Of a stretch of 26,961 bases of DNA, positions 1 to 11,714 are shown in pieces. Position numbers and translations under genes: made by a program. This DNA comes from Nostoc sp. GT001 (GTDB lineage Bacteria; Cyanobacteriota; Cyanobacteriia; Cyanobacteriales; Nostocaceae). Below the pieces are notes generated by a model that searched no databases, had not been told where the DNA came from, and saw only the letters and a list, made by a program, of their open reading frames with translations. The stretch spans positions 424,856-451,816 of the forward strand of contig NZ_JAUDRJ010000003.1 of assembly GCF_030382115.1 (NCBI RefSeq), written 5' to 3'. The number at the start of each line of letters is the position of its first letter. Position 1 is the first letter of the stretch.

Positions 1-3
1 CCA

Positions 4-282
4 ATGAGTACAGAAGAACAGATAAAAGCTGCGATCGTCGTCTTCCCTGAAGCGATCGGCATAGCTTCCCCAGAACTGAACAATGCGATTGAGATTGCTT
101 GCGAACAGCTAAACAAATTCGTCGATTACCTCCAAACCCTAGACCCAGAGCTAGAACGGCACGAGGCAACCATCTTGGGAGGCGCTATCTTGCAGGGATT
201 GCCAATGCTTTTTGAAGACAACCCAGAGATCATTGCTGGCATCAAAGCCGACTGCCAAAAGATAAGAGCTAATCGCCAATGA
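4..282 (+). CDS. Hypothetical 92-aa protein of the mobile element
   Basis: A short acidic, helix-rich soluble protein starting at an ATG. I recognise no domain. Its stop overlaps the next gene's start in an ATGA arrangement (279-282), so the two are probably translationally coupled and co-transcribed. Nothing upstream is visible, so it may be an internal gene of an operon that begins to the left. HIP1-like CGATCG motifs occur in it, as in the host chromosome. Its position before the primase-helicase suggests an early or accessory gene of the integrated element, but that is inference from place only. Confidence 0.7.
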   Translation: MSTEEQIKAAIVVFPEAIGIASPELNNAIEIACEQLNKFVDYLQTLDPELERHEATILGGAILQGLPMLFEDNPEIIAGIKADCQKIRANRQ

Positions 283-620
283 GTGACGAAATTATCGAAG
301 TAACTATCTACAAGCCAAAGCGAATACCTGATATTTATCGCCCACCACTGGGACTGCCTCTGAACTGGCAGGATGAAGCATCAGGAAAATTGCGATCGGC
401 GGTCTTCAAGTTTTTTAGCTATCAAACACTTTCCCCCAATGAAATCAGCCTTGTCGCCGAATACTGCCAGCATTACATCAACGCCCCTTGCTGGGATGCT
501 ACAGGGGAATTTCCTAATGAGCTAGCAGCGTTAAGGCAATCGGCTGCAACACTATCTACCGTTGATGAAATTGGACAGTGGATTAATGGCTGCCTTGAAA
601 TTGCGATCGACCCGTTTTAA
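279..620 (+). CDS. Hypothetical 113-aa protein, coupled to the preceding gene
   Basis: Begins within the stop codon of the upstream gene (ATGA), a layout typical of coupled phage and island genes. The product is soluble. Its N-terminus carries a basic, proline-containing stretch (KPKRIPDIYRPPLGLPLNW), and a Cys/His/Trp-containing segment (EYCQHYINAPCW) sits mid-protein. Four scattered cysteines do not form a zinc-finger pattern I can name. I recognise no family. It ends 204 bp before the primase-helicase gene, on the same strand. A role in control or replication of the element is possible but unsupported. Confidence 0.7.
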   Translation: MSDEIIEVTIYKPKRIPDIYRPPLGLPLNWQDEASGKLRSAVFKFFSYQTLSPNEISLVAEYCQHYINAPCWDATGEFPNELAALRQSAATLSTVDEIGQWINGCLEIAIDPF

Positions 621-761
621 AACCGAACTTGAAAGTGCGATCGCAAAACCAGAACTTCAGACAACAGTTAATAGATGCCTATCATCCTGTTACCTAACAA
701 AAAAAAAGACCCCAGGAATCAGCTAGAGTCAAAAGGAATAAAATATGAAAAATTACTTTCA

Positions 762-785
762 AAGAAAGATTAAAGAATCTTTCTT
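762..785. promoter_or_regulatory. Perfect 10-bp inverted repeat upstream of the primase gene
   Basis: Arms AAGAAAGATT and AATCTTTCTT are separated by AAAG, about 40 bp before the primase-helicase ATG. It is not followed by a T-run, so a terminator is unlikely. An operator or a 5'-UTR hairpin fits the position better. Confidence 0.5.
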
Positions 786-786
786 C

Positions 787-813
787 ATTAATGCCAATTC
801 TAGCATTAATTGG
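787..813. promoter_or_regulatory. Overlapping dyads abutting the primase ribosome-binding site
   Basis: Two alternative dyads overlap here. ATTAATGC (787-794) pairs with GCATTAAT (803-810), and CCAATT (794-799) pairs with AATTGG (808-813). The second arm runs into the GGAGGG Shine-Dalgarno at 812-818. This could be a repressor operator or mutually exclusive RNA hairpins that affect ribosome access. The pairing is seen directly; the function is inferred. Confidence 0.4.
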
Positions 814-824
814 AGGGTAGAGCA

Positions 825-3560
825 ATGACTTTATCTACTCCTCAAACAGTCGATACCATTGCATCTCACCACTGGGAAGAATGGCAATTAAGTGGTGTAT
901 CTGCAAAAATAATACAGCGAAATGTAAGAACCTTATATGACTCTAGAGAAGTCGATAAAGCTCTCAATCGCAATACAAAATCCAGACAAAAACACTCGGA
1001 GCATTTAGTACCTTGCTGGATGGTTTCAGGAGTAAATCCACTGACAGGAGAAAGCACCTTAGAAGGCGTACAAGCAAAGCCAGATGTCTCACCATTAGGT
1101 AAAGATGGAAAAGTAAACAAGTATTTGGGAGCAGTTGGTTATGGTGCTTCTCCCTTGTTCTTGGACACAGGGGTAGAGTATTTTTGGCAACAAGTCCTCG
1201 CTGATAAATCAATCCCTATAATCATTACCGAAGGAGCCAAGAAAGCAGGTACGGGTTTAACCATCGGACTTCCAACTATATCTATACCTGGTGTATCGAC
1301 TTGCCGAAAGATGGGCAGACTTCACTCATGGATAGAAGCCTTTGCTGGATTTGGCAGAACTTTCTACCTATGTTTTGACGCTGACATATTGCATAAACGT
1401 CCTGTCCAGCAATCCTTAATCAACATAGCCAGAGATTTAAGCGCGACAGGTTCAAAAGTTATGGTAATTAAATTACCATCAATTGAACTTAAAGGCATGG
1501 ATGACTTTATTGCTGCTAAGGGAGAAGAAACTTTCAAGCAACTAATAGAAGATGCTCCAACCATTGAAGAGTGGAAGAAGGATTTAGAGGAGCAACGTAA
1601 AAATGACACAGAATATGATGACGAGGAACGCACATCAAAAGTTTACCGCGCCTACAAAATCATCAAAGATGGATGGGGCGATAATCTCCGGTTAAACCAA
1701 CTCAAAAACATCATTGAACTGAACGACCAAAAAATAGACTTAAACCAATTACGGCTATACATAGCAATGGAGTTTGACATGGACGTACAAATAGGAGATG
1801 GACAGGCGATTGTTGAGGCGATCGCATCTCGAAATGCTTACCATCCAGTAGTGGAATATTTAGATGAAGTTGCCGCTAGATACAGTACAGTTGACCCTTC
1901 AATTCTTGACAACTTAGCGACTAAATACTTTGGTACAGACGACCCACTTCACAACATTTATCTGAAAAAGATGTTGATATCAGCCGTAGCTCGGACCCGT
2001 CGTCCTGGGTGTAAAGTTGATACCGCTTTAATCCTGGTAGGGGAACAGGGAATAAACAAATCCAGCTTTTGGCGGGAACTGTTCGGGCGTGACTGGTTCA
2101 CAGACGAACTCAGCGACGGCAACGAGAAAGACGAGCTAATGAAACTGCATCAGTTCTGGGGTTTAGAAATCCCAGAAATCGAACACATGTATAAGAGAAA
2201 GGACATCAGCAGCATCAAAAAATTCATGTCTTCGAGCGTTGATGCCTTCCGCGCTCCTTATGCCCGCGAGGTAAAAGAGCATCCTCGCGCCTGTGTCTTG
2301 GTTGGAACGAGTAACGAAACAGAACTTCTCAACGACCCCACAGGCAACCGACGATTTTGGATTATCCCTGTAATAGACGACATCCCAATTGATATCGAGC
2401 AGTTAGTCCGAGAACGCGATTTAATTTGGGCAGCTGCTAACGCCCTTTACGAGAAAGGGCATCAGTGGTGGCTATCGCCAGCCGAGTCGAAAGTCCACAA
2501 CGAAGCCAGCAAAGATTTCCAATCCGTTGACCCCTGGACAGACACAGTATTGGCTTACTCTCGCCAGCAAGGAGAGACAACCACCTCTGAAATTTTGAGA
2601 ATTGCGCTAGGAATTGAACTCGGTAGACAGGAGATGCTCTACACCAAAAGAGTTTCAGCTATTCTCCGGTCGAACGGTTGGGAACAGTACAGACAAAAAA
2701 TTGGGAACAGTCGCCCTTGGGCTTGGCGGTTGAAGTCATCATCAGAAAACCAAAAAAGTTTGGGTAACAAGGCAGATCAAGGCAGATCACCCGGATCACT
2801 TTCCCCAAATTCAGAAGTTGAAACTGAATTAGAAAATCAAAAAAGTTTGGGTAACAAGGCGGATCAAGGCAGATCACCTGGATCACTTTCCCAAAATCCA
2901 CAAAGTGATCCGCCTAGTGATCCGGCAAGGCAGATCACACCTCAGCCCTTACAGAATAAGACTTTCGAGCCGATTAATCCGCCCGTGATCCGCCTTGATC
3001 CGCCTACTTTACCCAACTTTTCTGAAAATAATTTTGTTGTACAAGCGGAAGTAACCACGACTGACACAGAAACCAAAAACGAGAGCAGCGCTATCACTTG
3101 CCCAGAGAAATGCAGCTATTACAAAACCTTTGAAGGAGTTAAACCTTTCATATTCAAAGTAGAGTCAGACTTTGGAGCGGTTGAGGTCAGCGCCGAACCA
3201 TATCACCGCTTCCAAACAAGTGGTGAGAGTAAAATCTGGTTGATATTCAAGACACCGGACGGGCAGACATTAACTAAGACCATCAAGGCAACCCCAGATA
3301 AAAAGGCGCTGCCCAGGCTGGCTAAAGAATGTGGTTCCATTCAACAGTGGGAAGAGAGGGTAAGAAAAGATTTCAGTTCCAAGATTGAGAATGCCAGCTA
3401 CAAGTTTAAGGTGCGGATTCTCGGAGATGATGACTACGAGTGGATTGAGGGTTGCATTCTCAAAACTGTGCCCAGTCGCCCATCTGTTAGCCATTTCATA
3501 TTTACAACTCCGAAGAAGACAGTGGTCACTTCTCACTTGGGCGAATTTGAGGAGATGTAA
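825..3560 (+). CDS. DUF3854/Toprim + VapE-type primase-helicase of the mobile element
   Basis: A 911-residue replication protein. The ATG at 825 is chosen over an in-frame TTG at 810 because a strong GGAGGG lies just before it. The N-terminal ~250 residues look like DUF3854, a Toprim-type primase domain: a glutamate in IIITEGAKKAG (about 131-141) and FDAD (about 184-187) would bind metal. A VirE/VapE-type superfamily-3-like helicase follows: Walker A GEQGINKSS (about 406-414), Walker B-like FWGLEIPEIE (about 444-453), sensor VLVGTSNE (about 489-496), arginine finger TGNRRFW (about 507-513). Residues about 640-730 form a low-complexity linker with a duplicated 29-residue block that coincides with a GATC repeat array in the DNA. 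The last ~150 residues form an unrecognised domain. Such fusions are typical replication modules of phages, satellites and plasmids. Confidence 0.9.
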   Translation: MTLSTPQTVDTIASHHWEEWQLSGVSAKIIQRNVRTLYDSREVDKALNRNTKSRQKHSEHLVPCWMVSGVNPLTGESTLEGVQAKPDVSPLGKDGKVNKYLGAVGYGASPLFLDTGVEYFWQQVLADKSIPIIITEGAKKAGTGLTIGLPTISIPGVSTCRKMGRLHSWIEAFAGFGRTFYLCFDADILHKRPVQQSLINIARDLSATGSKVMVIKLPSIELKGMDDFIAAKGEETFKQLIEDAPTIEEWKKDLEEQRKNDTEYDDEERTSKVYRAYKIIKDGWGDNLRLNQLKNIIELNDQKIDLNQLRLYIAMEFDMDVQIGDGQAIVEAIASRNAYHPVVEYLDEVAARYSTVDPSILDNLATKYFGTDDPLHNIYLKKMLISAVARTRRPGCKVDTALILVGEQGINKSSFWRELFGRDWFTDELSDGNEKDELMKLHQFWGLEIPEIEHMYKRKDISSIKKFMSSSVDAFRAPYAREVKEHPRACVLVGTSNETELLNDPTGNRRFWIIPVIDDIPIDIEQLVRERDLIWAAANALYEKGHQWWLSPAESKVHNEASKDFQSVDPWTDTVLAYSRQQGETTTSEILRIALGIELGRQEMLYTKRVSAILRSNGWEQYRQKIGNSRPWAWRLKSSSENQKSLGNKADQGRSPGSLSPNSEVETELENQKSLGNKADQGRSPGSLSQNPQSDPPSDPARQITPQPLQNKTFEPINPPVIRLDPPTLPNFSENNFVVQAEVTTTDTETKNESSAITCPEKCSYYKTFEGVKPFIFKVESDFGAVEVSAEPYHRFQTSGESKIWLIFKTPDGQTLTKTIKATPDKKALPRLAKECGSIQQWEERVRKDFSSKIENASYKFKVRILGDDDYEWIEGCILKTVPSRPSVSHFIFTTPKKTVVTSHLGEFEEM
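2751..3022. repeat. GATC-centred iteron-like array inside the primase gene (candidate origin)
   Basis: Eleven GATC tetramers lie between 2775 and 3000, mostly inside 10-bp units of the form AGGCRGATCA or its reverse TGATCYGCCT. GATC starts are at 2775, 2785, 2794, then 2862, 2872, 2881, then 2907, 2919, 2933, then 2987 and 2997. The first two triplets are two copies of an 87-bp direct repeat with the same 10/9 spacing. The outer ends are inverted: the motif AAAAGTTTGGGTAA near 2756 and 2843 reappears as TTACCCAACTTTT at 3010-3022. This matches an iteron origin embedded in its initiator gene, though no experimental or database support is available here. Confidence 0.55.
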
Positions 3561-3943
3561 ACAAGCATAGTAAAACGCGATCGCACTTCTACCTGAGAGA
3601 GCGATCGCGCAGTTGCAATTCATATTTCTACCCCAAGGTATTCGCCTTAGAGGGTAAAAGCAAGTGCGATCCTTTTTAAAGATTGTATAAATTCTTTTAC
3701 TGTCAAATTCAGTACAGATACTTATGATATCTGCCTTGTATTTTAGTTGAGTTCCTGTTTTACCTGTTTCTAGGGTTAAATAGGTATATTTTTTATCGTC
3801 AGAATAATCAATATCTCTGTAACTTAATCGCAGCAACACATACGGTAAGTGAAACTACTTCCTCTTTTACATAAAAGTGGAACATTTACACAATTTTCAT
3901 TGCCCCATAAAACTGAAGAGTAACTATTTATAAATCTCTTCAA
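3561..3943. other. 383-bp gap between primase and structural operon
   Basis: It holds HIP1-type GCGATCGC sites near 3580-3610, then AT-rich DNA from about 3680. A palindrome CTTTTACATAAAAG occurs near 3865-3880, and a dyad precedes the next gene. I see no convincing gene. A minus-strand open frame starting with GTG near 3839 looks protein-like for its first ~60 codons but has no well-placed Shine-Dalgarno and then runs antisense through the primase gene. The promoter of the structural operon is probably located here. Confidence 0.5.
3914..3942 (+). promoter_or_regulatory. Dyad directly before the first structural-operon start codon
   Basis: TGAAGAG (3914-3920) and CTCTTCA (3936-3942) are perfect 7-bp arms around a 15-nt AT-rich centre, ending one base before the ATG at 3944. 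It could be a repressor operator or an mRNA hairpin controlling initiation. No free Shine-Dalgarno is visible for the gene. Confidence 0.4.
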
Positions 3944-4249
3944 ATGACAGCATTTAATCCCGCAACAGATATTCCATCTCAAATAGATACATTAGAAAAA
4001 CTTGCGGCATGGTTAGGATCTGCATTATTTACCATCAATCCAACCTTGACAGTTATTGAGGGTGTTGGTTATACAGAACGCGCTTGCCAAGCAAATAATT
4101 ACTGGGTAGCAGCTGACGCGAAAACACGGATGATCGTTCGTCTTTCGCTCGAAGTCTCTGCCGATCAAGCCAGTGGCAGCAATAAGAACTGGACATACAT
4201 TCAGCCGTTGAGTAATACCGCGCTGCCCGCTTCATTTAAGGCAAATTAA
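3944..4249 (+). CDS. Hypothetical 101-aa protein, first gene of virion-like operon
   Basis: A small soluble protein with a helical N-terminal part (LEKLAAWLGSALFT) followed by a beta-prone half that contains GVGYTERACQANNYWVAAD. No family is recognised. It is first in a run of + strand genes reaching 10,913 and is followed after 22 bp by the 941-residue protein. Initiation may be controlled by the dyad that ends one base before its ATG. Its position suggests a structural or assembly component of the element's particle, but this is inference. Confidence 0.65.
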   Translation: MTAFNPATDIPSQIDTLEKLAAWLGSALFTINPTLTVIEGVGYTERACQANNYWVAADAKTRMIVRLSLEVSADQASGSNKNWTYIQPLSNTALPASFKAN

Positions 4250-4271
4250 AGGTAATTGGCGAAAAATCAGT

Positions 4272-7097
4272 ATGGAAAATCCACGCCAATTTGCTTCACT
4301 TGATGCCAGCGATGCGGCGTTACACGGCTCCCTTACAAATCGCCCAGCAAGTGCTGTCGCGGCTGGCGATCCAATTGATTTTGACGCCATAAATGCAAGA
4401 CGGCGATATGAGTTGAATTATGGGCTACGGAAATTCGCAGAAAGTGCCGGAGAACGCAATCTAAGGGAGGCTGTTTCGCGGAACAAGCACGTCAAAGCAA
4501 GGTATCAACGGCGTCTACTAACGAACAAGCCAGGGTATCAACCTCTCAGGCGCAAACGCAACGTGTTGAATTGCAGCAAGGGACAACCGAGTAGTGACGT
4601 TATAGAAGCGGAATTTGCCCAAACACGACGCGAGTCACCGCTTGCACAAAACCAGCGATCGACGCCGGAGCGTCAGCCATTGCCATCTACTGGTAGTCCA
4701 CCACCAACCCCAAGCGGTACATCTGCACGCGCTGACTCACTGGTAGAGCCAACCGCTACACCACGGCCAGCCGTAATACGTGAAGCGATCGGTAATACTG
4801 TTGGCGGCATCGGGCAATCCTTACCAAAAGCTTTACCCCAGGCGGCGGGAAGACTCATTATTCCTGGGGTCGGCGCTGGCCTGACCTTCGCGGGTGCGTT
4901 GATTGCTGGGCAGTCCGTTCAGCAAGCTGCTACAACTGCCGCAGTAGTAACAGCAGGTAGTGTCGCAGGCGGACTTATTGGTACTGCTGTTGGTGGGCCA
5001 ATTGGCGGATACGTTGGTTCAATGATCGGCGGTTTTGCGGGTGGTTATCTTGCGAATGCACTCTTTCCACAGCAATTACCATCGACAGCAGCAAGGCACG
5101 AGCAATACACGCCAAACTACCAACCCTACATAGGAGGGCAGGGGATCGGCGTATTGTATTATGTATTCTGGTCGATGAAGTTGGGTAATGGAACTGTCAG
5201 TAATTTCCAGTCAGCGCCAATTCCCGGACCTATCACTGCCTTTAAAACCACGCGATTAAGCGATGGACGTTGGCAAGTAGAAATTTTCTCTAACGATGTA
5301 AGCACGGGTGCTTCCGTCGTAGGGAACTCAACAACCAGTGAACCTTATGTGACCTCTATTTCCCGTGCAGACGGTCAACGGGATACCGCACCGGATAGAC
5401 GCGGGTACAATCCAGCGCCAGCGGACAATACGCCACCGCAATACAGTTATTCGCCAATCGGCGGCGACAACACAATCCCATCGGGTTTACCCGCGGCTGG
5501 CTTGAACAAAGGCAAGGATAAACAAATCGCTCCATCCATGCCGTCCAATAATACGCCGAACGGAGCGCCGTTTTTCCCCGGTCATGGTGGATTAGCACCA
5601 AGCTACTTGCCTAATCCAGAACACCAACCGTCAAACCTTGGCGGTATGTTGCCACAGATGCAGCCATTGCCTCAGCGAAAATCACTGCCATTCGCCGAAC
5701 CAGAGGATATCCCAGTACCAAGGACGGGGTTAACGATTACACCTTCAGAGGGCGGCGTCGTGCCTATCGGGTATGTAGAGGTAACAGCAGGCACCGTAAC
5801 GCAGTCAACAATAACTGTTTCAGAGGGAACAGACGCATTCGGCAATGATGTCTCTACCCGCGACAAAAACACGCTAATAACGAGTGTCCCGTCATCCGCG
5901 CCAACCACAGCGCAGCCCATACCGATGTCTGATGCGCTATCGCCCGTACCGAAATCGCGAACAGCGCCGATCACAAAAACGCCAACAGAATTGGCGAACG
6001 ATGGCATCAAAACGGCGTTAGACCAACAACAAAAGGATTTTAACGAAAAACTCGGACAACTGACTGCGATCGCAACCGCAATTGCGGCCCTAACACCAGC
6101 AATACAAGGTATCCCGAATGCGATCGCAAACAACCCAAATGTCCGCGCCGCAAACCGTGACGATGTGCAGGGTGCTGTGTGTGAAATTTCTCAGCCTACT
6201 GGTTGCCTTGGCGCGCCAATTAAGCAAGCCGAGGATGCTGCAAAGGCAAATGGAAATAAACTCAACGACATTTTAACCGGAATAAATACCGCAGGGAGTG
6301 CTGCACAACTAGCACTTTTGGATACCATCAACGGCAAACTTGGCGATCAATTGCCGGGTGGCATCGGCGGGAAGTTATCGCGTTTTGCGGATTGGATGCA
6401 CCTAGATCGGGTGCTAAATATTATGATTCTTGCCACTACTGTCCACAATGGCTTGATGTTAAGCAATGACATCGGTCAAACATTATTAGGAATTATTAGT
6501 AATGTTTTGACCTTAATTGGATTAAAAAAGGAAGATGGTAGCGCCTTTGATATTGGATCTGTAATTAGTGGCTCTATTGAAAATTTAATCAAAGGTGCAA
6601 TCGGAGTTGAAAATTATCAACAAATGACGGAAGCATGGGCCAAAGCCAATAGAATTTATCAAGCAACAAATAATGTTATAAATAGCTTTTTGAATTTATC
6701 TCAAACTATTCTCCAAGCTTCTGAATTAATCGCAGCCTACACAGGGAAGATAGGAAATGCTTTGAGAAAAGGTGGAATCATTCTTGAAAGTGCCTATGGC
6801 TGGATGAACCCGCAACCTAAATTTAATCGCGTCACGCAAACCTTGGAAAGTTTACAAAATGGAGCAAGCACCATACAAATGGTGACACAAGCCCCGCTAG
6901 ACGTGGTAAATGCCGTCACAGAATCAACAACGGCTGCAACCGAATTTGTAAAAGCGGTAAAAGAAGATGACAAACCTGTAAACAAAGCTACGCCTATCCC
7001 AGAACCAGACGAATTAAAAGCCAAAGAATCTCAGTCAAAGACTGATTCTCAACCATTGAATTTTGATTTTTCAGACTTATTCGATGGGGAGGATTAA
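4272..7097 (+). CDS. 941-aa glycine-zipper protein, virion-like or membrane-active
   Basis: The largest gene of the operon. Four parts can be seen. (1) Residues 1-115 are charged and basic, with LRRKRN near 92-97. (2) After a Pro/Ser/Thr linker, residues about 195-265 form a hydrophobic glycine-zipper stretch (repeated GxxxG, e.g. GGLIGTAVGGPIGGYVG), as in membrane-inserting pore or pilot proteins. (3) A long Pro/Asn/Gly-rich, beta-prone middle follows to about 575. (4) The remainder is helical, with hydrophobic segments near 705-745 (e.g. VLNIMILATTVHNGLML) and an acidic tail. The coding sequence changes style near 6420: GC-rich codons before, AT-rich after, suggesting a mosaic gene. A membrane-penetrating or tape-measure-like role is possible. 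No named family is recognised. Confidence 0.75.
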   Translation: MENPRQFASLDASDAALHGSLTNRPASAVAAGDPIDFDAINARRRYELNYGLRKFAESAGERNLREAVSRNKHVKARYQRRLLTNKPGYQPLRRKRNVLNCSKGQPSSDVIEAEFAQTRRESPLAQNQRSTPERQPLPSTGSPPPTPSGTSARADSLVEPTATPRPAVIREAIGNTVGGIGQSLPKALPQAAGRLIIPGVGAGLTFAGALIAGQSVQQAATTAAVVTAGSVAGGLIGTAVGGPIGGYVGSMIGGFAGGYLANALFPQQLPSTAARHEQYTPNYQPYIGGQGIGVLYYVFWSMKLGNGTVSNFQSAPIPGPITAFKTTRLSDGRWQVEIFSNDVSTGASVVGNSTTSEPYVTSISRADGQRDTAPDRRGYNPAPADNTPPQYSYSPIGGDNTIPSGLPAAGLNKGKDKQIAPSMPSNNTPNGAPFFPGHGGLAPSYLPNPEHQPSNLGGMLPQMQPLPQRKSLPFAEPEDIPVPRTGLTITPSEGGVVPIGYVEVTAGTVTQSTITVSEGTDAFGNDVSTRDKNTLITSVPSSAPTTAQPIPMSDALSPVPKSRTAPITKTPTELANDGIKTALDQQQKDFNEKLGQLTAIATAIAALTPAIQGIPNAIANNPNVRAANRDDVQGAVCEISQPTGCLGAPIKQAEDAAKANGNKLNDILTGINTAGSAAQLALLDTINGKLGDQLPGGIGGKLSRFADWMHLDRVLNIMILATTVHNGLMLSNDIGQTLLGIISNVLTLIGLKKEDGSAFDIGSVISGSIENLIKGAIGVENYQQMTEAWAKANRIYQATNNVINSFLNLSQTILQASELIAAYTGKIGNALRKGGIILESAYGWMNPQPKFNRVTQTLESLQNGASTIQMVTQAPLDVVNAVTESTTAATEFVKAVKEDDKPVNKATPIPEPDELKAKESQSKTDSQPLNFDFSDLFDGED

Positions 7098-7100
7098 TCA

Positions 7101-7946
7101 ATGTCATTACCAGAAGGCTTTGACAATATTGAACATCTCCAGAGAACCTGGAATCAAGAGCATAATCGTCGGGTTGATAGATACTTCAAAGATGTCCAAG
7201 GCAATGGTGATTTATCTGGCGTTAGACCATCTTTAAAGCTAGCTTGTCGGGCGTTAGATAATGATAATATGTACGCATCTTGGATGCGTTCAGATTTGTT
7301 TTACAACGTTATTGGCTACGGTAAAAAAAATCTCGCTGTTTTTTACGGTAATAGACTTGATACTGCTCCGCCCGTTGCTGGACATCCTCAGTTATTTTTT
7401 GTTTTCTCTCAAGATGAGTCAGCGTCACCTTCTGAAGAATCACCTATACAGCACGAAAAGTCTGTTAGATTGATGAAATTTTCTTGTTCATCTGGAAATG
7501 CAAAGCCAGCTATTTCCAAAGCCAATATGACAGAAATTGCTAACGAAATTAAAACCACTTTCTTGTCAAGCAGCAGAGGAATAACTTATACAACAGGGAA
7601 TAAATCAGCTAGTTACACCGATCCTGATAATGGATTTCCCAAGGGGAATTATTTATTGGTAAATTCTAGAACTGACGCAGTAGAAATTTATCAAAAAATT
7701 TGTAACGTAATTGATGTACCCTTTCAAGCAGAAAGGGTAATTGTGAACGATCCAGACAAACCCAGCACTACAACCGCATCAGCCGGGAAAGTCACGATTT
7801 TAGGCAAACAGGTACAGAACCGCAGGTATAGACCTGTAGCAGTCCTCAGATTCAGAAGCGCTTATATATCTTTGGGCAATCTTATCCCACCAGTCTTTTT
7901 GATAGATACAACGCTCCAGAATCAGGGATTAGTCAAATATCCTTAA
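7101..7946 (+). CDS. Hypothetical 281-aa protein of virion-like operon
   Basis: Starts 3 bp after the preceding stop, with a clear GGGGAGG upstream. The product is soluble and mixed alpha/beta: a charged N-terminus (QRTWNQEHNRRVDRYFKD), a central Ser-rich acidic stretch, and a C-terminal beta-prone segment (e.g. RPVAVLRFRSAYISLGN). There is no transmembrane segment and no recognised catalytic motif. Tight spacing and a strong ribosome-binding site fit a well-translated component made together with the 941-residue protein. A structural or assembly role is inferred from context only. Confidence 0.75.
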   Translation: MSLPEGFDNIEHLQRTWNQEHNRRVDRYFKDVQGNGDLSGVRPSLKLACRALDNDNMYASWMRSDLFYNVIGYGKKNLAVFYGNRLDTAPPVAGHPQLFFVFSQDESASPSEESPIQHEKSVRLMKFSCSSGNAKPAISKANMTEIANEIKTTFLSSSRGITYTTGNKSASYTDPDNGFPKGNYLLVNSRTDAVEIYQKICNVIDVPFQAERVIVNDPDKPSTTTASAGKVTILGKQVQNRRYRPVAVLRFRSAYISLGNLIPPVFLIDTTLQNQGLVKYP

Positions 7947-8007
7947 TTTGTAACAATTTTGCGAAAGTAGCTGTGGCTGAGAATAAAGGTAAAAACCTAT
8001 TAGGTTT

Positions 8008-8055
8008 CCACACAGAATTCTAAGGATTTTAAAGGGCTAGAGTTGGTGGAAACTG
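8008..8055 (+). promoter_or_regulatory. Inverted repeat upstream of the candidate shell-protein gene
   Basis: The arms GTTTCCAC and GTGGAAAC lie on either side of about 30 bp in the 130-bp gap before the gene at 8077. An AAACCTATTAGGTTT palindrome overlaps the left arm. The gap is the longest within the operon and may hold a promoter or leader for the next gene; this is inferred. Confidence 0.3.
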
Positions 8056-8076
8056 CAACTATCACCAATAAAAATT

Positions 8077-8658
8077 ATGGGTTTTAGAGACCTGAACCGA
8101 TATCCGCTGCAAAAGGCTCGGTACGACAAATATCAAGCTTGGCTAAATTCGACTCCTCAAGAACGTCAGCAGAAATTTGCAGCTATTACCGACGAAACCA
8201 AGCGGGCAAAGGCAGAAAAAATAGATGGCTATATTTCTCCCTTTGGTACAGCTGGTACTACGAAGATATATGTTCCTGCCCAATTGATCAAGAGCGATCA
8301 AACTGGACAAGGTTCTGGTGTGGCCAATGTACTTCGGGGGCTGCTTGCTAGCCGTACCACTACAGCTAGCGAATTTGCCCTACTAACCACGCCAATTAAG
8401 ATTGACGCGAAGAAGTTCAAGTTTGCCAGGCTAACACTTACTACTGTTGTGCCGGGAACCGTGAAGAAAGCCAGTCGGATTACTGGCGTCGAGTACAAAA
8501 AACCTGACGTAGATTCGGTCACTTCTCCTTTTGGTCAAGGTACTGGTGGTGAAGCTTATGATGCCGCTGTTTTAGCCATAGAAGAAACAACGGAGTATGT
8601 GACCTTCATTGAAGGAAACGGCGGCAAAAATCGGGTTAGATTCACTCCTGAAGGCTAA
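8077..8658 (+). CDS. 193-aa candidate major shell/structural protein
   Basis: It has a charged, helical N-terminal arm of about 55 residues (e.g. DKYQAWLNSTPQERQQKFA). The rest is Gly/Thr/Val-rich and beta-prone (e.g. FARLTLTTVVPGTVKKASR), and it ends in the acidic, Gly-rich ENGGKNRV-like region. There is no signal peptide or membrane segment. This plan, an N-terminal arm plus beta body in a gene with its own leader region, is common in coat or shell proteins, so it is my best guess for the main particle protein. No recognised family supports this. The stop overlaps the next ATG (TAATG). Confidence 0.7.
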   Translation: MGFRDLNRYPLQKARYDKYQAWLNSTPQERQQKFAAITDETKRAKAEKIDGYISPFGTAGTTKIYVPAQLIKSDQTGQGSGVANVLRGLLASRTTTASEFALLTTPIKIDAKKFKFARLTLTTVVPGTVKKASRITGVEYKKPDVDSVTSPFGQGTGGEAYDAAVLAIEETTEYVTFIEGNGGKNRVRFTPEG

Positions 8659-8921
8659 TGAGCAAGATAGCAGAACGAACTGGAATTATTTGGACTCCAG
8701 ATGATCCGTTAGACCTGCTATCTGTTGATGTTGATGGCAACTGTTCTGAGTCTGAGTTTCGGGGAATGCTTGCCATCAATCAAGCGGGTAGGGATTGGCT
8801 AACGGGGAAAATTGACATCGTTGAATACCTCGATAAGTTAGAGCATTACGGTATACCCAACCCATTCGAGATATTAGACGAATTTGCAGAACACGTTGAT
8901 TTTGTAATTGACCACGCTTGA
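8658..8921 (+). CDS. Hypothetical 87-aa acidic protein
   Basis: The start codon overlaps the stop of the preceding gene, indicating translational coupling. The product is strongly acidic and helix-prone (e.g. KLEHYGIPNPFEILDEFAEH) with no basic patch and no membrane segment. The stretch DVDGNCSESEF resembles the first half of a calcium-binding loop but lacks the canonical position-12 acid, so no EF-hand is claimed. Small acidic proteins just after a coat-like gene are often assembly or tail chaperone-like factors in phages, but nothing here proves that. Confidence 0.7.
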   Translation: MSKIAERTGIIWTPDDPLDLLSVDVDGNCSESEFRGMLAINQAGRDWLTGKIDIVEYLDKLEHYGIPNPFEILDEFAEHVDFVIDHA

Positions 8922-8922
8922 T

Positions 8923-9381
8923 ATGTCCCGAATTTTACAGCTAGGAATAGAAAGTAATTGGCAATTGCAATATAGTGATTCTTTTCCGGCTGTAAGTTAC
9001 TTAAATGATTCAGCAGGAAAGCCAATTTATCAAAGGATAACTGAGATAAATATTCCTGTAGTCTTTGATAAATCCATCATTGCCGTGGCTGTGAATACTA
9101 GTGTTCCTGTAGGGAAAATTTGGAAGTATGCGGGATACTTGCGCCGCAGCTTGACAACTGGTTTAGGTGCAAGTTTCGTAGGCGAACCGGAAAGCTTGTT
9201 TTTAGGGAAATTCAACTTAATCATTTTTGATGACTTGAATATTAATTACTTCCTATCACTTCAAGTGCCTAAATGGTTTATCAACGCTAATGTTGCTATT
9301 TACCAATACGAAGGTATAGATAGAAGCACGATAGAAGATGATATGCAAGCAATAAAATTAGCGCTAGGAATATCTTTGTAG
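8923..9381 (+). CDS. Hypothetical 152-aa protein of virion-like operon
   Basis: The ATG at 8923 lies one base past the previous stop (TGATATG), so I prefer it to an in-frame TTG at 8908. The protein is soluble, aromatic-rich and beta-prone (e.g. ESNWQLQYSDSFPAVSY, FNLIIFDDLNINYF), with a short helical C-terminus. No family or catalytic motif is recognised. The close spacing to neighbours on both sides places it in the same transcript as the structural-like genes. It could be a connector or minor structural component; this is inference from context. Confidence 0.7.
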   Translation: MSRILQLGIESNWQLQYSDSFPAVSYLNDSAGKPIYQRITEINIPVVFDKSIIAVAVNTSVPVGKIWKYAGYLRRSLTTGLGASFVGEPESLFLGKFNLIIFDDLNINYFLSLQVPKWFINANVAIYQYEGIDRSTIEDDMQAIKLALGISL

Positions 9382-9392
9382 GGTAGGAAGCA

Positions 9393-9707
9393 ATGATCAA
9401 CAACGTATCAGCAGGCGAGTCTAGTAATAAATTTACTACTTGTACTAATGATGAAAAAAGCTTATCAGCCAACAACAAAACTGAGATTTTAAATACTAAT
9501 CCCAACAGAAAATACTCAGCATTCATCAATAGTTCCAACGTAGATATTACTTTAATCTTGGGGGACACAAACCAAGGGGGAATAGGTAAAGGAATTATCC
9601 TTAATCCCCGTGGCAGCTACGAAATTAATGCTAATAACCTGTATTTAGGAAAGGTTACTGCTATTTCTGCATCTATTTGTAAACTTTCGTTTGTGGAGTG
9701 TGTCTAA
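9393..9707 (+). CDS. 104-aa beta-rich phage-type structural protein
   Basis: A clear AGGAAG Shine-Dalgarno precedes the ATG. The C-terminal two thirds carry a pattern I know from many phage genomes: NPNRKYSAFINSSNVDITL, an LGD turn, a glycine-rich loop, then GSYEINANNLYLG. This predicts a small beta-sandwich. The next gene has the same layout (NSSRKGATIWNDSTANLFI ... GGYFEVPFNYTG), so the two are probably anciently duplicated paralogues. Its stop overlaps the next ATG (TAATG). The role is probably a virion surface or head-tail decoration protein; the exact function is unknown. Confidence 0.75.
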   Translation: MINNVSAGESSNKFTTCTNDEKSLSANNKTEILNTNPNRKYSAFINSSNVDITLILGDTNQGGIGKGIILNPRGSYEINANNLYLGKVTAISASICKLSFVECV

Positions 9708-10018
9708 TGGCTCTTTATAATCCGGCATCAGTAACAGTAACCGAATCAACTAGTGGAACCTCAACGCCTGCCACTGTTGCTTCTAGCGCTACTAGTGTGA
9801 CAATCTTGGCTGCCAATTCCAGCCGGAAAGGTGCAACGATTTGGAACGACAGCACTGCTAATTTGTTTATTGAATTTGGTGCAACCGCAGCAACAAACGC
9901 TTTTACTGCCAAGTTATCAGCAGGTGGATATTTTGAAGTGCCATTTAATTACACTGGGGTAATTAGTGGTATTTGGTCAGCGGCTAACGGTAGTGCTTTA
10001 GTGCGGGAGCTAACTTAA
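9707..10018 (+). CDS. 103-aa beta-rich phage-type structural protein
   Basis: The ATG at 9707 overlaps the preceding stop and has GGAG eight bases upstream, so I prefer it to an in-frame GTG at 9698. The N-terminal ~30 residues are Ser/Thr/Ala-rich. The body follows a widespread phage pattern: AANSSRKGATIWNDSTANLF, LSAGGYFEVP, YTGVISGIW and a C-terminal ALVRELT. Proteins with this signature occur in tailed-phage structural modules and are usually annotated as hypothetical or virion proteins. It is the strongest sign in the window that the operon encodes phage-like particle components. Confidence 0.8.
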   Translation: MALYNPASVTVTESTSGTSTPATVASSATSVTILAANSSRKGATIWNDSTANLFIEFGATAATNAFTAKLSAGGYFEVPFNYTGVISGIWSAANGSALVRELT

Positions 10019-10019
10019 A

Positions 10020-10469
10020 ATGCCTTTATCCAATCCAGTATTTTCAGAATTATTACTTCCCACTAGTTTTGCTCACTGGCATGATGAAAGTTTGGTGGAA
10101 GTGGGCGGACAAATGAAAACTGACACAAACGCTAGTCTTGCTTATGGAGTTGAAATTTATCAAGATCCACCGGGAATTAATGATAGCTTTAGTTTCCTGA
10201 AGTTACTAGCAGTAGGAACTTACAATCTGTCTGTGCTAACCACTTTAAAAACCAATCTTGGAAGATTAAAACTAGAGATTGATGGTAATTTGGCTTTTGA
10301 CGATATGGATTGCTATAATGCATCTCTTGTTGTTAATGCAATACTTCAAAGAACTATTACCATCCCCACTGATGGGTTACATGAGTTTAAATTTACTGTG
10401 TTTTCAAAGAATGCAGCCTCTAGTAATTATTATTTTTCTGGTCGAAAAATCTGGGCAAGAAAAATATAA
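10020..10469 (+). CDS. 149-aa beta-rich virion-like protein
   Basis: Begins one base after the preceding stop with GGGAG upstream. The sequence alternates polar and hydrophobic residues typical of a jelly-roll or carbohydrate-binding-like fold: GTYNLSVLTTLKTNLGRLKL, ELKFTV-like strands and a C-terminal SGRKIWARKI. There is no signal peptide or membrane segment. The plan resembles phage appendage domains that bind host surfaces, but I recognise no named family. Its place at the end of the structural train supports a late-acting surface component; this is inference. Confidence 0.7.
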   Translation: MPLSNPVFSELLLPTSFAHWHDESLVEVGGQMKTDTNASLAYGVEIYQDPPGINDSFSFLKLLAVGTYNLSVLTTLKTNLGRLKLEIDGNLAFDDMDCYNASLVVNAILQRTITIPTDGLHEFKFTVFSKNAASSNYYFSGRKIWARKI

Positions 10470-10484
10470 TTTCAACTTAAATAA

Positions 10485-10913
10485 ATGGTTGCTACTTCGT
10501 CAACAATAGCTACAAACTCTAGTCCTTCTCCAGGAATAACATTAACTTTAGAAAGCACTGGTATATTTTTAGGGATTCTTGTTAGTGCTTCTGTTCTTGG
10601 TGGTGTAGCTGTTACCGTCATCAGCAAAATGAATCGAATTTCAAGTTCGATTACTCAAATTGAAAAGACTCTTGAAGAACAAGCGAGGAATGCTGAAAAA
10701 ATTCGTGAGATTGATAGGACATTAGCTTTACATATTCAAGAGTATGTGAATCGAAAAGATGTTGTCCAGATGGTTTTGGGTCAATTAAATGAGAAAATTG
10801 ACCACAAGTTCAAGCGAGTATTATTTTACACTAGAGATATCCAGCGGTTTCTTCAGCGTGATACTGATTTCAAGATCCGTGAGTACGAGGAAACGACTCA
10901 GCCGGATGAATAA
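10485..10913 (+). CDS. 142-aa one-TM coiled-coil membrane protein
   Basis: After a short Ser/Thr-rich N-terminus, a single transmembrane helix spans about residues 25-47 (e.g. GIFLGILVSASVLGGVAVTV). A coiled-coil-like stretch follows (e.g. SSITQIEKTLEEQARNAEKI) and then a charged, soluble tail rich in basic residues (HKFKRVLFYTRDIQRF). Small phage proteins with one TM plus coiled coil are often lysis-associated (holin or spanin-like) or tail-membrane factors. The sequence alone does not decide between these. It is the last + strand gene of the element, 15 bp after its neighbour. Confidence 0.7.
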   Translation: MVATSSTIATNSSPSPGITLTLESTGIFLGILVSASVLGGVAVTVISKMNRISSSITQIEKTLEEQARNAEKIREIDRTLALHIQEYVNRKDVVQMVLGQLNEKIDHKFKRVLFYTRDIQRFLQRDTDFKIREYEETTQPDE

Positions 10914-10918
10914 CTCAC

Positions 10919-11291
10919 TGGGGATTCAGGGTAACTGAAGCTTTTTGCTTGTCAATAGGAGAATTGATCGCTGCATGAGCAGTTTGCTATAAAGTTTTTT
11001 CAATCCCTTGCTAGTAAAGAGTTTCGGGAGATACAAATAACTTATGGGCAGTTCTCCCAGCACGGCTGTCACTCCTTATAAGACAAATGTAGTCTCGCGT
11101 GGGGATTCAGGGTAACTGAAACTTTTTTGCTTGTCAATAGGAGAATTGATCGCTGCATGAGCAGTTTGCTATAAAGTTTTTTCAATCCCTTGCTAGTAAA
11201 GAGTTTCGGGAGATACAAATAACTTATGGGCAGTTCTCCCAGCACGGCTGTCACTCCTTATAAGACAAATGTAGTCTCGCGTGGGGATTCA
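10919..11291. repeat. 181/182-bp tandem direct duplication near the element end
   Basis: Copy 1 (10,919-11,099) and copy 2 (11,100-11,281) are almost identical. The differences seen are one G-to-A change and one extra T in the T-run near the start. A third copy begins (TGGGGATTCA, 11,282-11,291) and then diverges. Each unit contains a small TTCAG/CTGAA hairpin. No protein-coding frame is convincing. Near-identity implies a recent duplication or a unit maintained by recombination. It lies between the last + strand gene and the minus-strand gene next to the att site. Confidence 0.9.
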
Positions 11292-11337
11292 CTCTAGACA
11301 ACTTAGGGTGCAGGGAGCAGGGAATGGGGCGTAACCT

Positions 11338-11565
11338 TCATTTTGTTTCATCAACGAATTCTTCATTGATGAAATCAGGTATAAGCTCAGGATCTAAGCC
11401 TTTTTCTACAAGCTGGAACTCTATAATCCTCGCTCTGGCTAAATCACCAACAAAAAGGGCTGAGGAATGCTCCCCTTCAACAATGCAGTACGTAATAAAA
11501 GGTTCCTCCCATTCTTGAAGATCATCCTCTTCTATTTCGATCACTGAATAAAGCATAATCTTCAT
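11338..11565 (-). CDS. Hypothetical 75-aa acidic protein
   Basis: A minus-strand gene at the right end of the element. I choose the ATG that begins MKIMLYSVIEIEEDDLQ. A longer frame beginning with TTG at 11,607 adds 14 residues without a ribosome-binding site. The product is small, strongly acidic and likely alpha/beta (LYSVIEIEED, PFITYCIVEGEHSSALFVGD, then a helix). No family is recognised. It is the only minus-strand gene in the element. Together with its place 100 bp from the att remnant, it could be a regulatory or cargo gene, but the function is unknown. Confidence 0.6.
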   Translation of the reverse strand: MKIMLYSVIEIEEDDLQEWEEPFITYCIVEGEHSSALFVGDLARARIIEFQLVEKGLDPELIPDFINEEFVDETK

Positions 11566-11668
11566 TTTGTCGCGTTTTAGCGCATCTACTAGGCAAGGTT
11601 TAGGCAAAAATTAGCGATAAAAATAAAACAATTGCTTGACTATACGGGAATAATGCCTAAAACTGGTC

Positions 11669-11714
11669 GGACTGAAAATCCTCGTGTCACTAGGTTCAAG
11701 TCCGGTTCCTGGCA
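11669..11714 (+). other. tRNA-Phe(GAA) 3' fragment, likely attR of the element
   Basis: The sequence from GGACTGAAAATCC through ...CCTGGCA matches the anticodon arm (loop CTGAAAA, anticodon GAA), variable region (GTGTC), T-loop (TTCAAGT) and 3' acceptor strand (TCCTGGC plus discriminator A) of a bacterial tRNA-Phe. The 5' half is absent: the bases before 11,669 do not continue the anticodon stem. The T-arm has one extra base and mismatches (ACTAGG opposite CCGGT), so it is not a functional half. This is the classic scar of tyrosine-recombinase integration into the 3' end of a tRNA gene. Confidence 0.85.

Follow-up and report, generated by a model that had tools for sequence, protein, structure and literature searches.

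The stretch of DNA analyzed here (the window) comprises 26,961 nucleotides of Nostoc sp. GT001 (NZ_JAUDRJ010000003.1, positions 424,856 to 451,816) and contains a predicted replication initiator (rep) gene whose reading frame encloses an array of short, GATC-centered repeats, which the initial annotation had put forward as a candidate replication origin. The gene lies in an integrated element of ~18.7 kb that consists of window positions 1-11714 and the preceding segment G000:C3:417784-424855 (L064 12785-19856). This element is bounded by a tRNA-Phe(gaa) gene (G000:C3:417756-417828, ~7.1 kb before the window) and by a repeat of the 3' part of the tRNA. The nearest named relatives of the rep gene are found in Nostoc and Desmonostoc. 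Coordinates of all features are collected in Table 1.

Pfam recognized only VapE and DUF3854 in the Rep protein, and a C-terminal DEXDc helicase part of the CyRepA type was not found. The sole sequence match in the Protein Data Bank was 7pds (E 1.1e-28, or 2.2e-38 with a profile), and 7pds ('PriRep1 with dsDNA') was also the best Foldseek match of an AlphaFold 2 (AF2) model of Rep (3.2e-21), with the Staphylococcus aureus pathogenicity island (SaPI) 5 primase-helicase, 7ola, matching more weakly (3.6e-4); we take 7pds to come from a SaPI as well. In the AF2 model, for which the input alignment held 74 sequences, a winged-helix-like unit (residues 577-641; helices 577-587, 592-599 and 609-621, strands 624-628 and 637-641) directly follows the helicase. 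Model confidence is mostly good on both sides of the linker formed by residues 646-760. The array does lie, as first described, in a linker between folded protein domains, and this linker is predicted to be disordered.

The density of GATC in this linker is exceptional. Within the 272 bp from 2751 to 3022, GATC occurs 11 times (at 2775, 2785, 2794, 2862, 2872, 2881, 2907, 2919, 2933, 2987 and 2997), compared to 0.82 occurrences predicted from its frequency in the remainder of the window (Poisson P 1.3e-9), confirming the initial count; elsewhere in the window, no 272-bp stretch holds more than 6. The initial description needs two corrections: only eight array units match GGCRGATCA or its complement exactly, the remaining three GATCs sitting in the unit variants CCGGATCA, CTGGATCA and TGATCCGGC, and the claim that spacing is mostly 9-10 bp held for only 5 of the 10 GATC-to-GATC steps. 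When 10-bp units with up to two mismatches to AGGCGGATCA were considered, the unit at 2975 was found to lack GATC, and the unit around the GATC at 2881 has three mismatches. The array GATCs are spread over all three codon phases. The region also contains an 87-bp duplication (2741-2821 versus 2828-2908, 89% identity), as well as paired inverted arms at 2837-2877 and 2985-3025. Apart from the array, no 8-mer cluster in the window reaches four copies, and in the pre-window part of the element only a GCGATCGC cluster does. The 7.9-Mb genome of the organism contains three perfect copies of the double unit GGCRGATCAAGGCRGATCA, all within the array.

We examined related rep genes for comparable arrays. 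A relative at E 1e-60 was present in 57 genomes, from which 29 loci (L018-L046) were examined together with the two copies of the window's genome and L067-L069; of the plasmid records with a match 21/253 were fetched, of the phage records 4/665, and 8/11 viral contigs were scanned. L053 and L069 encode an identical protein. One scan used the longest open reading frame (ORF) per stretch, such that the frame of L066 is not the VapE relative of locus L003, that of L060 is cut by the end of the stretch and that of L061 runs from an inner start. Unit names and array ends were assigned by hand for the layout, flank GC, tree, pairing and C-terminal comparisons. The layout and 8-mer sets leave out L018-L020, which are near-identical to the window's gene (L001), as well as L044, L048, L057 and L066.

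Each related gene was compared with 60 synonymous-codon shuffles, in which both the protein and its codon usage were kept, and the best 8-mer cluster exceeded all of them in 34 of 40 genes. These clusters map to roughly residues 630-820, C-terminal to the winged helix, and each comprises 2-5 orientation-frame classes. Among 131 other ORFs of at least 200 aa in the scanned loci, which served as a control, only three carried such arrays. One is the second rep copy, another is the first frame of plasmid L055, which we took as the end of a rep cut in two where the record begins, and the third is an unrelated gene of L050. On L047 and L051-L055, which are Nostoc plasmids, an array of the GGTGGAAC, CTAGAACA or GTGTCAAC type formed the densest repeat cluster in the stretch examined. 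The unrelated gene (L050 659-2593, on a Microcystis plasmid) carries ten CCGTCGCG in one orientation and one frame and was the only clearly non-rep array in the control scan.

Synonymous third positions varied far less within units than in the protein core: 2/28 versus 253/517 in the GGC class (five genes, p 4e-6), 0/35 versus 265/363 in the TCT class (four genes, p 7e-19) and 1/27 versus 148/528 in the plasmid class (three genes, p 0.002). When all sites were counted, units were also less variable than the unit-free gaps of the same arrays (p 9e-4, 2e-17 and 8e-6 for the three classes). Synonymous changes that erase the repeats were specifically looked for, and the opposite was observed. Taken together, the codon shuffles and the synonymous sites indicate that the linker DNA is under selection beyond the peptide, as the initial annotation had suspected.

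Sequences other than the unit itself recur in these linkers to varying degrees. An 8-mer of the left-flank type, AAAGTTTG/CAAACTTT, is present in 16 of 37 linkers (30 codon shuffles reach 15 at most), and an AT-rich flank at or below the 10th GC percentile of the gene accompanies the array in 19 of 26 genes, including that of the window; the flank GC value of L002 is not meaningful, as a stray unit placed its array end too far right. We also considered CAGCAAG and ACAGCAA as a second conserved motif. They occur in 11 and 12 of 32 linkers, respectively (five further near-duplicates were dropped for this test), against codon-shuffle means of 4.8 and 4.3 and maxima of 11 and 8 in 100 shuffles. 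The signal is weak and in part explained by the peptide, and the motif was kept as a lead. Both sequences are nearly always in the + orientation, and two copies are found in the intergenic array of L048. The sequence TTTTCCACA, presumably DnaA-box-like, was marked in a few arrays.

As the initial annotation had predicted, both the unit and its copy number vary across relatives. Unit types include GGCGGATCA, TCTGGATCA, GGTGGATCA, CTTGGATCA and CATGGATCA, and, without GATC, CCTGGAACA, TCTGGGACA, GGTGTAACA, GGTGGCGA, GGTGGAACA and GGTGTCAAC; GATC-free units are carried by 13 relatives (L028, L039, L042, L043, L045, L046, L047 and L049-L054). On a tree of residues 1-642, we counted at least 21 unit changes, a number that depends on hand-assigned labels and includes one-letter differences. 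This was a quick tree of 43 rows, 37 of them labeled, with 9 of 40 inner branches open; it leaves out L018, L044, L048 and L057, and L070-L072 and L077 are its only viral loci.

In L002, L022 and L023, the TCTGGATCA units are spaced at 9,9,36,20,9,55,9,20,34,9,9, and in L025, which is nested in the clade of these three, the GGTGGATCA units are spaced at 10,9,36,20,10,10,43,9,10,20,36,10,9. The outer spacings are equal to within 0-2 bp, and the center of L025 has two more units and is 7 bp longer. All units have been changed in this clade while the outer spacing was kept. Every unit is mirror-paired in both the TCTGGATCA form (12/12) and the GGTGGATCA form (14/14). Symmetry reached p<0.05 in 12 of the 27 arrays tested, some of which are closely related; the 27 do not include L049, L050, near-duplicates or arrays of fewer than six units. 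The second rep copy in the window's genome (L002/L065, G000:C3:2201535-2204209) is interrupted as a gene, and its perfect 12-unit TCTGGATCA array is intact. The array of L046 mixes GGTGTCAC and GGTGGAAC units and is possibly an intermediate of a unit change.

We compared unit identity with the individual domains of Rep. The winged helix of L025, whose unit differs, is 0.53 identical to that of L022, compared to 0.65 for L026, in which the unit is kept, although the rest of L025 is nearer to L022 than L026 is (0.80 versus 0.77 in the helicase and 0.87 versus 0.71 in the primase). Across greedily chosen disjoint pairs, the winged-helix deficit had a median of 0.00 when the unit was the same (n=8) and 0.25 when it differed (n=10; p 7e-4, confounded by divergence). 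C-terminal identity, by contrast, is independent of the unit, with L001 and L021 sharing a unit at 0.22 identity and L001 and L022 differing in unit at 0.89; C-terminal parts of at least 40 aa form two large groups and five singletons. The unit thus tends to follow the winged helix rather than the C-terminal domain, a tendency confounded by relatedness because same-unit pairs are also closer relatives.

Most of the VapE loci sampled outside the Nostocaceae carry a similar array near the end of rep. For 15 loci on plasmids and phages, picked by hand, we scanned the last 300 bp of rep and 1.1 kb behind it, with a first-order Markov null for comparison; for L048 and L081-L084 the downstream DNA was already known before the test, and for the other ten it was not. 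In 13 of the 15, the densest cluster was located between 54 bp ahead of the rep stop and 617 bp past it; 12 of these stood at 0/100 Markov nulls and one at p 0.04. The array starts between 54 bp ahead of the stop and 130 bp past it in 11 of these 13 and at 381 bp in L082 and L094, which carry one and the same array, so that the count is 12 of 14 distinct loci. In the 3.1-kb Microcystis plasmid p2-NIES88 (L048), rep has no internal array, and nine exact CCCTACC units in facing sets lie 78-384 bp behind the rep stop, where the two array halves flank a 15%-GC stretch that is the lowest 40-bp window of the plasmid. Across several phyla, the array accompanies rep on plasmids, on integrated elements and on phages.

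Three observations concern neighboring initiator types. L061-L063 encode a different type of initiator, for which L062 was tested and showed D5_N and DUF5906 domains. This type has the C-terminal domain in common with Rep, and a GGTGACGGGTCA array occupies the same position in it, in a single orientation. On the Phormidium plasmid L057, the VapE gene lacks a linker, and GTGGATCA units in alternating, facing orientation occupy another gene ~1.1 kb away (4957-5931), which is hypothetical, has no Pfam match and, by eye, may encode an N-terminal helix-turn-helix. No array was found in three long DUF3854 genes of the window's genome (L058-L060), in which the query matched only DUF3854 and VapE was not matched; we guess that these are of the CyRepA1 type.

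The reading that we consider likely is that the array serves as the origin of replication, or as the core of one, for the ~18.7-kb integrative element and lies inside the element's own initiator gene. Rep, with its VapE helicase, would probably use the winged helix behind its helicase domain to bind the 9-10-bp units. The forward and reverse blocks would then load two helicase rings face to face, the AT-rich DNA beside the array would be opened by the loaded helicases, and the DUF3854 (TOPRIM-like) domain would prime synthesis.

An origin is the best interpretation of the array, and the initial proposal as a whole is partly supported, but several observations weigh against this reading. AT-rich DNA, expected next to the array from the start, is present at its flanks, but the gaps inside the window array have 40% GC, the very AT-rich center of the origins of phage-inducible chromosomal islands (PICIs) is absent, and the lowest-GC window of the gene falls elsewhere in 18 of 26 genes. 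Fifteen of the 27 arrays are not significantly symmetric, among them that of the window (p 0.087), which has a duplicated left block. The GC-skew check suggested initially did not mark the array: of seven plasmids, six show no extremum of cumulative GC skew closer to it than 1.5 kb. The extremum of L049, a maximum, lies 132 bp from the array and is not significant, the next nearest are at 1.5 kb in L050 (p 0.018) and 1.8 kb in L047 (p 0.038), and the TA-skew maximum is 3.0-3.5 kb away in four of the seven. Since the extrema do not coincide with the array, skew was rejected as independent evidence of an origin.

Further points concern selection and specificity. Compared with unit-free gaps at synonymous sites only, units did not differ significantly (p 0.58, 0.19 and 0.08, with few sites and gaps that are conserved too), so array-wide homogenization may contribute to the signal. 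Six of the 40 genes fail the shuffle test, namely L031, L033 and L034 (few units), L044 (truncated), L048 (array outside the gene) and L057 (no linker). Among eight viral-contig genes, three exceed the shuffles, two tie and three lack an array; plasmid L050 has a denser cluster in another gene than in rep, and two of the 15 loci outside the Nostocaceae (L088 and L091) have no array in the searched stretch. L046 and L068 differ in unit without a winged-helix deficit. Mantel correlations between unit and domain distances were 0.22-0.39 for four domains, but the winged-helix partial r was 0.012 over all pairs, and we dropped this correlation as support for the winged-helix link. Two plasmids of Nostoc sp. 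TCL26-01 share an identical unit, which strict iteron incompatibility would disfavor. The literature searched contained no binding or replication experiment for this Rep group.

The missing AT-rich center of in-gene arrays and the lack of a GC-skew mark would also suit units that serve as Rep-binding sites for copy-number control, incompatibility or autoregulation (handcuffing), with strand opening elsewhere, such as upstream of rep. In CyRepA2, a DUF3854 Rep of another family, replication required the ORF and its upstream region (PMC10079941; here and below, as given in excerpts of the cited papers). We nevertheless regard this explanation as unlikely, given that the window has no other 8-mer cluster of at least four copies, that the counterpart array of the minimal 3.1-kb plasmid flanks its most AT-rich stretch and that PICI and SaPI origins occupy the corresponding place (PMC6092414, PMC7581432).

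A partition, recombination or packaging site is a very improbable alternative to an origin. C-terminal parts are swapped right behind the array, so the region does recombine, and some Nostoc plasmids carry ParA, ParB or ParM genes; however, the array accompanies rep across replicon kinds and phyla, and its unit tends to track the Rep winged helix. We take as contradicted the idea that the repeats are a functionless by-product of a Ser/Gly/Gln/Pro-rich linker peptide growing by slippage. The predicted disorder and the 87-bp duplication would fit it, but the unit occurs in both orientations and several frames and so encodes different peptides, its synonymous sites hardly vary, and arrays of the same kind also lie outside genes. 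Finally, Dam-type GATC methylation that couples replication to the cell cycle, a form of the methylation link raised by the initial annotation, is not supported and very improbable, because 13 relatives have the same kind of array with GATC-free units, even though 24 of 31 linkers contain at least five GATC.

Table 1. Features of the rep gene, its array and the element's right end in the window.
Feature	Position	Strand	Basis or remark
Initiator (Rep) gene, 916 aa, TTG start: DUF3854 primase-like, VapE helicase, winged helix, array linker, C-terminal domain	810..3560	+	Pfam, AF2 model, 7pds
DUF3854 domain, residues 125-240	1182..1529	+	Pfam 1.3e-32
VapE-like helicase domain, residues 364-571	1899..2522	+	Pfam 1.5e-75
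Winged-helix-like domain, residues 575-642, proposed to bind the array	2532..2735	+	Model
Linker carrying the array, residues 646-760, predicted disordered	2745..3089	+	Predicted local distance difference test (pLDDT) <50
Left AT-rich flank with AAAAAAGTTTGGG	2751..2769	.	Recurs from 2838 in duplicated block
Iteron-like array, proposed replication origin	2770..3005	.	Unit layout, exact units, GATC positions
Forward array units (10 bp, <=2 mismatches to AGGCGGATCA)	2770, 2780, 2789, 2857, 2867, 2928	+	
Reverse array units (10 bp, <=2 mismatches to AGGCGGATCA)	2906, 2918, 2975, 2986, 2996	-	
Right AT-rich flank with CCCAACTTTTCTGAAAATAATTTTG, 31% GC, candidate melting region	3006..3050	.	4th percentile of gene
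C-terminal domain, residues 769-916, exchanged among relatives independently of unit	3114..3557	+	Model
attR-like right end	11669..11714	.	Two exact 22-bp blocks shared with tRNA-Phe; one-base length difference between blocks

Judged by its other genes, the element may be a virus or a satellite. Next to the tRNA-Phe gene there is a weak match to a phage integrase, and L064 15099-16295 (-) weakly matches a HerA/DUF87-like ATPase. In the gene run at window positions 4272-10913, the genes tested lacked Pfam matches, and weak PHROGs matches were obtained to one tape-measure protein and one spanin. A block of ~180 bp is present twice in tandem at about 10920-11290, just inside the element's right end.

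If the array is indeed an origin, replication of the window's element starts within the element's own rep gene, and the origins of related cyanobacterial plasmids and integrated elements could be read from the rep sequence, which would aid the construction of vectors for a group in which few replicons are known. The kept geometry and changed units among relatives allow a direct test of how an initiator changes together with every copy of the site it binds, and would amount to a natural record of initiator-iteron co-evolution.

Known systems resemble this arrangement in different respects. CyRepA1 and CyRepA2 of cyanobacterial replicons share the N-terminal DUF3854 but have a DEXDc-type helicase part where the window's Rep has VapE (PMC10079941). 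Cch2 of the staphylococcal cassette chromosome mec (SCCmec) is likewise a helicase initiator, whose C-terminal domain binds short direct repeats downstream of the operon, although these are three 5-nt iterons outside the gene (PMC7581432). No origin inside a VapE or DUF3854 gene was found in titles and abstract openings of the open-licence literature.

Lambdoid O-type initiators, the parallel drawn initially, depend on another protein as helicase. As in lambdoid O, gene 18 of P22 and gene 18 of phage L, the window's iterons are in frame within the initiator gene and vary between relatives (PMC8022706). The parallel holds to this extent, but lambda and P22 have four repeats of ~20 bp and phage L six of 11 bp (PMC8022706), whereas the window has 11 units of 9-10 bp and an initiator with its own VapE helicase domain.

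The protein and the location of the array, just behind the winged helix of a VapE helicase, suggest that replicons of the SaPI/PICI kind are the closer relatives. PICI origins lie directly 3' of rep and consist of two iteron sets around an AT-rich region (PMC6092414), and the C-terminal domain of SaPI Rep recognizes iterons directly downstream of its gene (PMC7581432). The window shares with them a related helicase initiator, supported by the 7pds and 7ola matches, and short repeats in both orientations right behind the DNA-binding end of the helicase (PMC6092414, PMC7581432). It differs in that the array is enclosed by the coding frame, with another C-terminal domain following it, rather than lying immediately 3' of rep, that its two facing sets have AT-rich DNA at the flanks and no strongly AT-rich center, and that DUF3854 replaces the archaeo-eukaryotic primase (AEP) named for SaPIs. 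In p2-NIES88, the two sets do surround an AT-rich region. The 13 of 15 sampled loci with arrays around or behind the rep stop suggest that an origin layout described, in the excerpt of PMC6092414, as special to PICIs is common among VapE replicons.

The layout in the window may descend from, or parallel, such an origin directly 3' of a VapE rep gene. Given the arrays around or behind the stop in other VapE replicons and the PICI layout, the Nostocaceae reading frame looks as if it had come to run through the origin and on into an additional C-terminal domain, the origin then being translated as a disordered linker and the 3' origin being the presumed earlier form. We lean, with less assurance than for the origin itself, toward the broader view that a widespread group of cyanobacterial initiators enclosed a SaPI/PICI-like origin in frame, that the specificity of initiator and origin was rewritten ~20 times (by hand-assigned unit labels), in at least one clade with all units changed and the outer spacing kept, and that C-terminal modules were exchanged at the array's edge. 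The array within rep is very probably a variant of the SaPI/PICI-type iteron origin.

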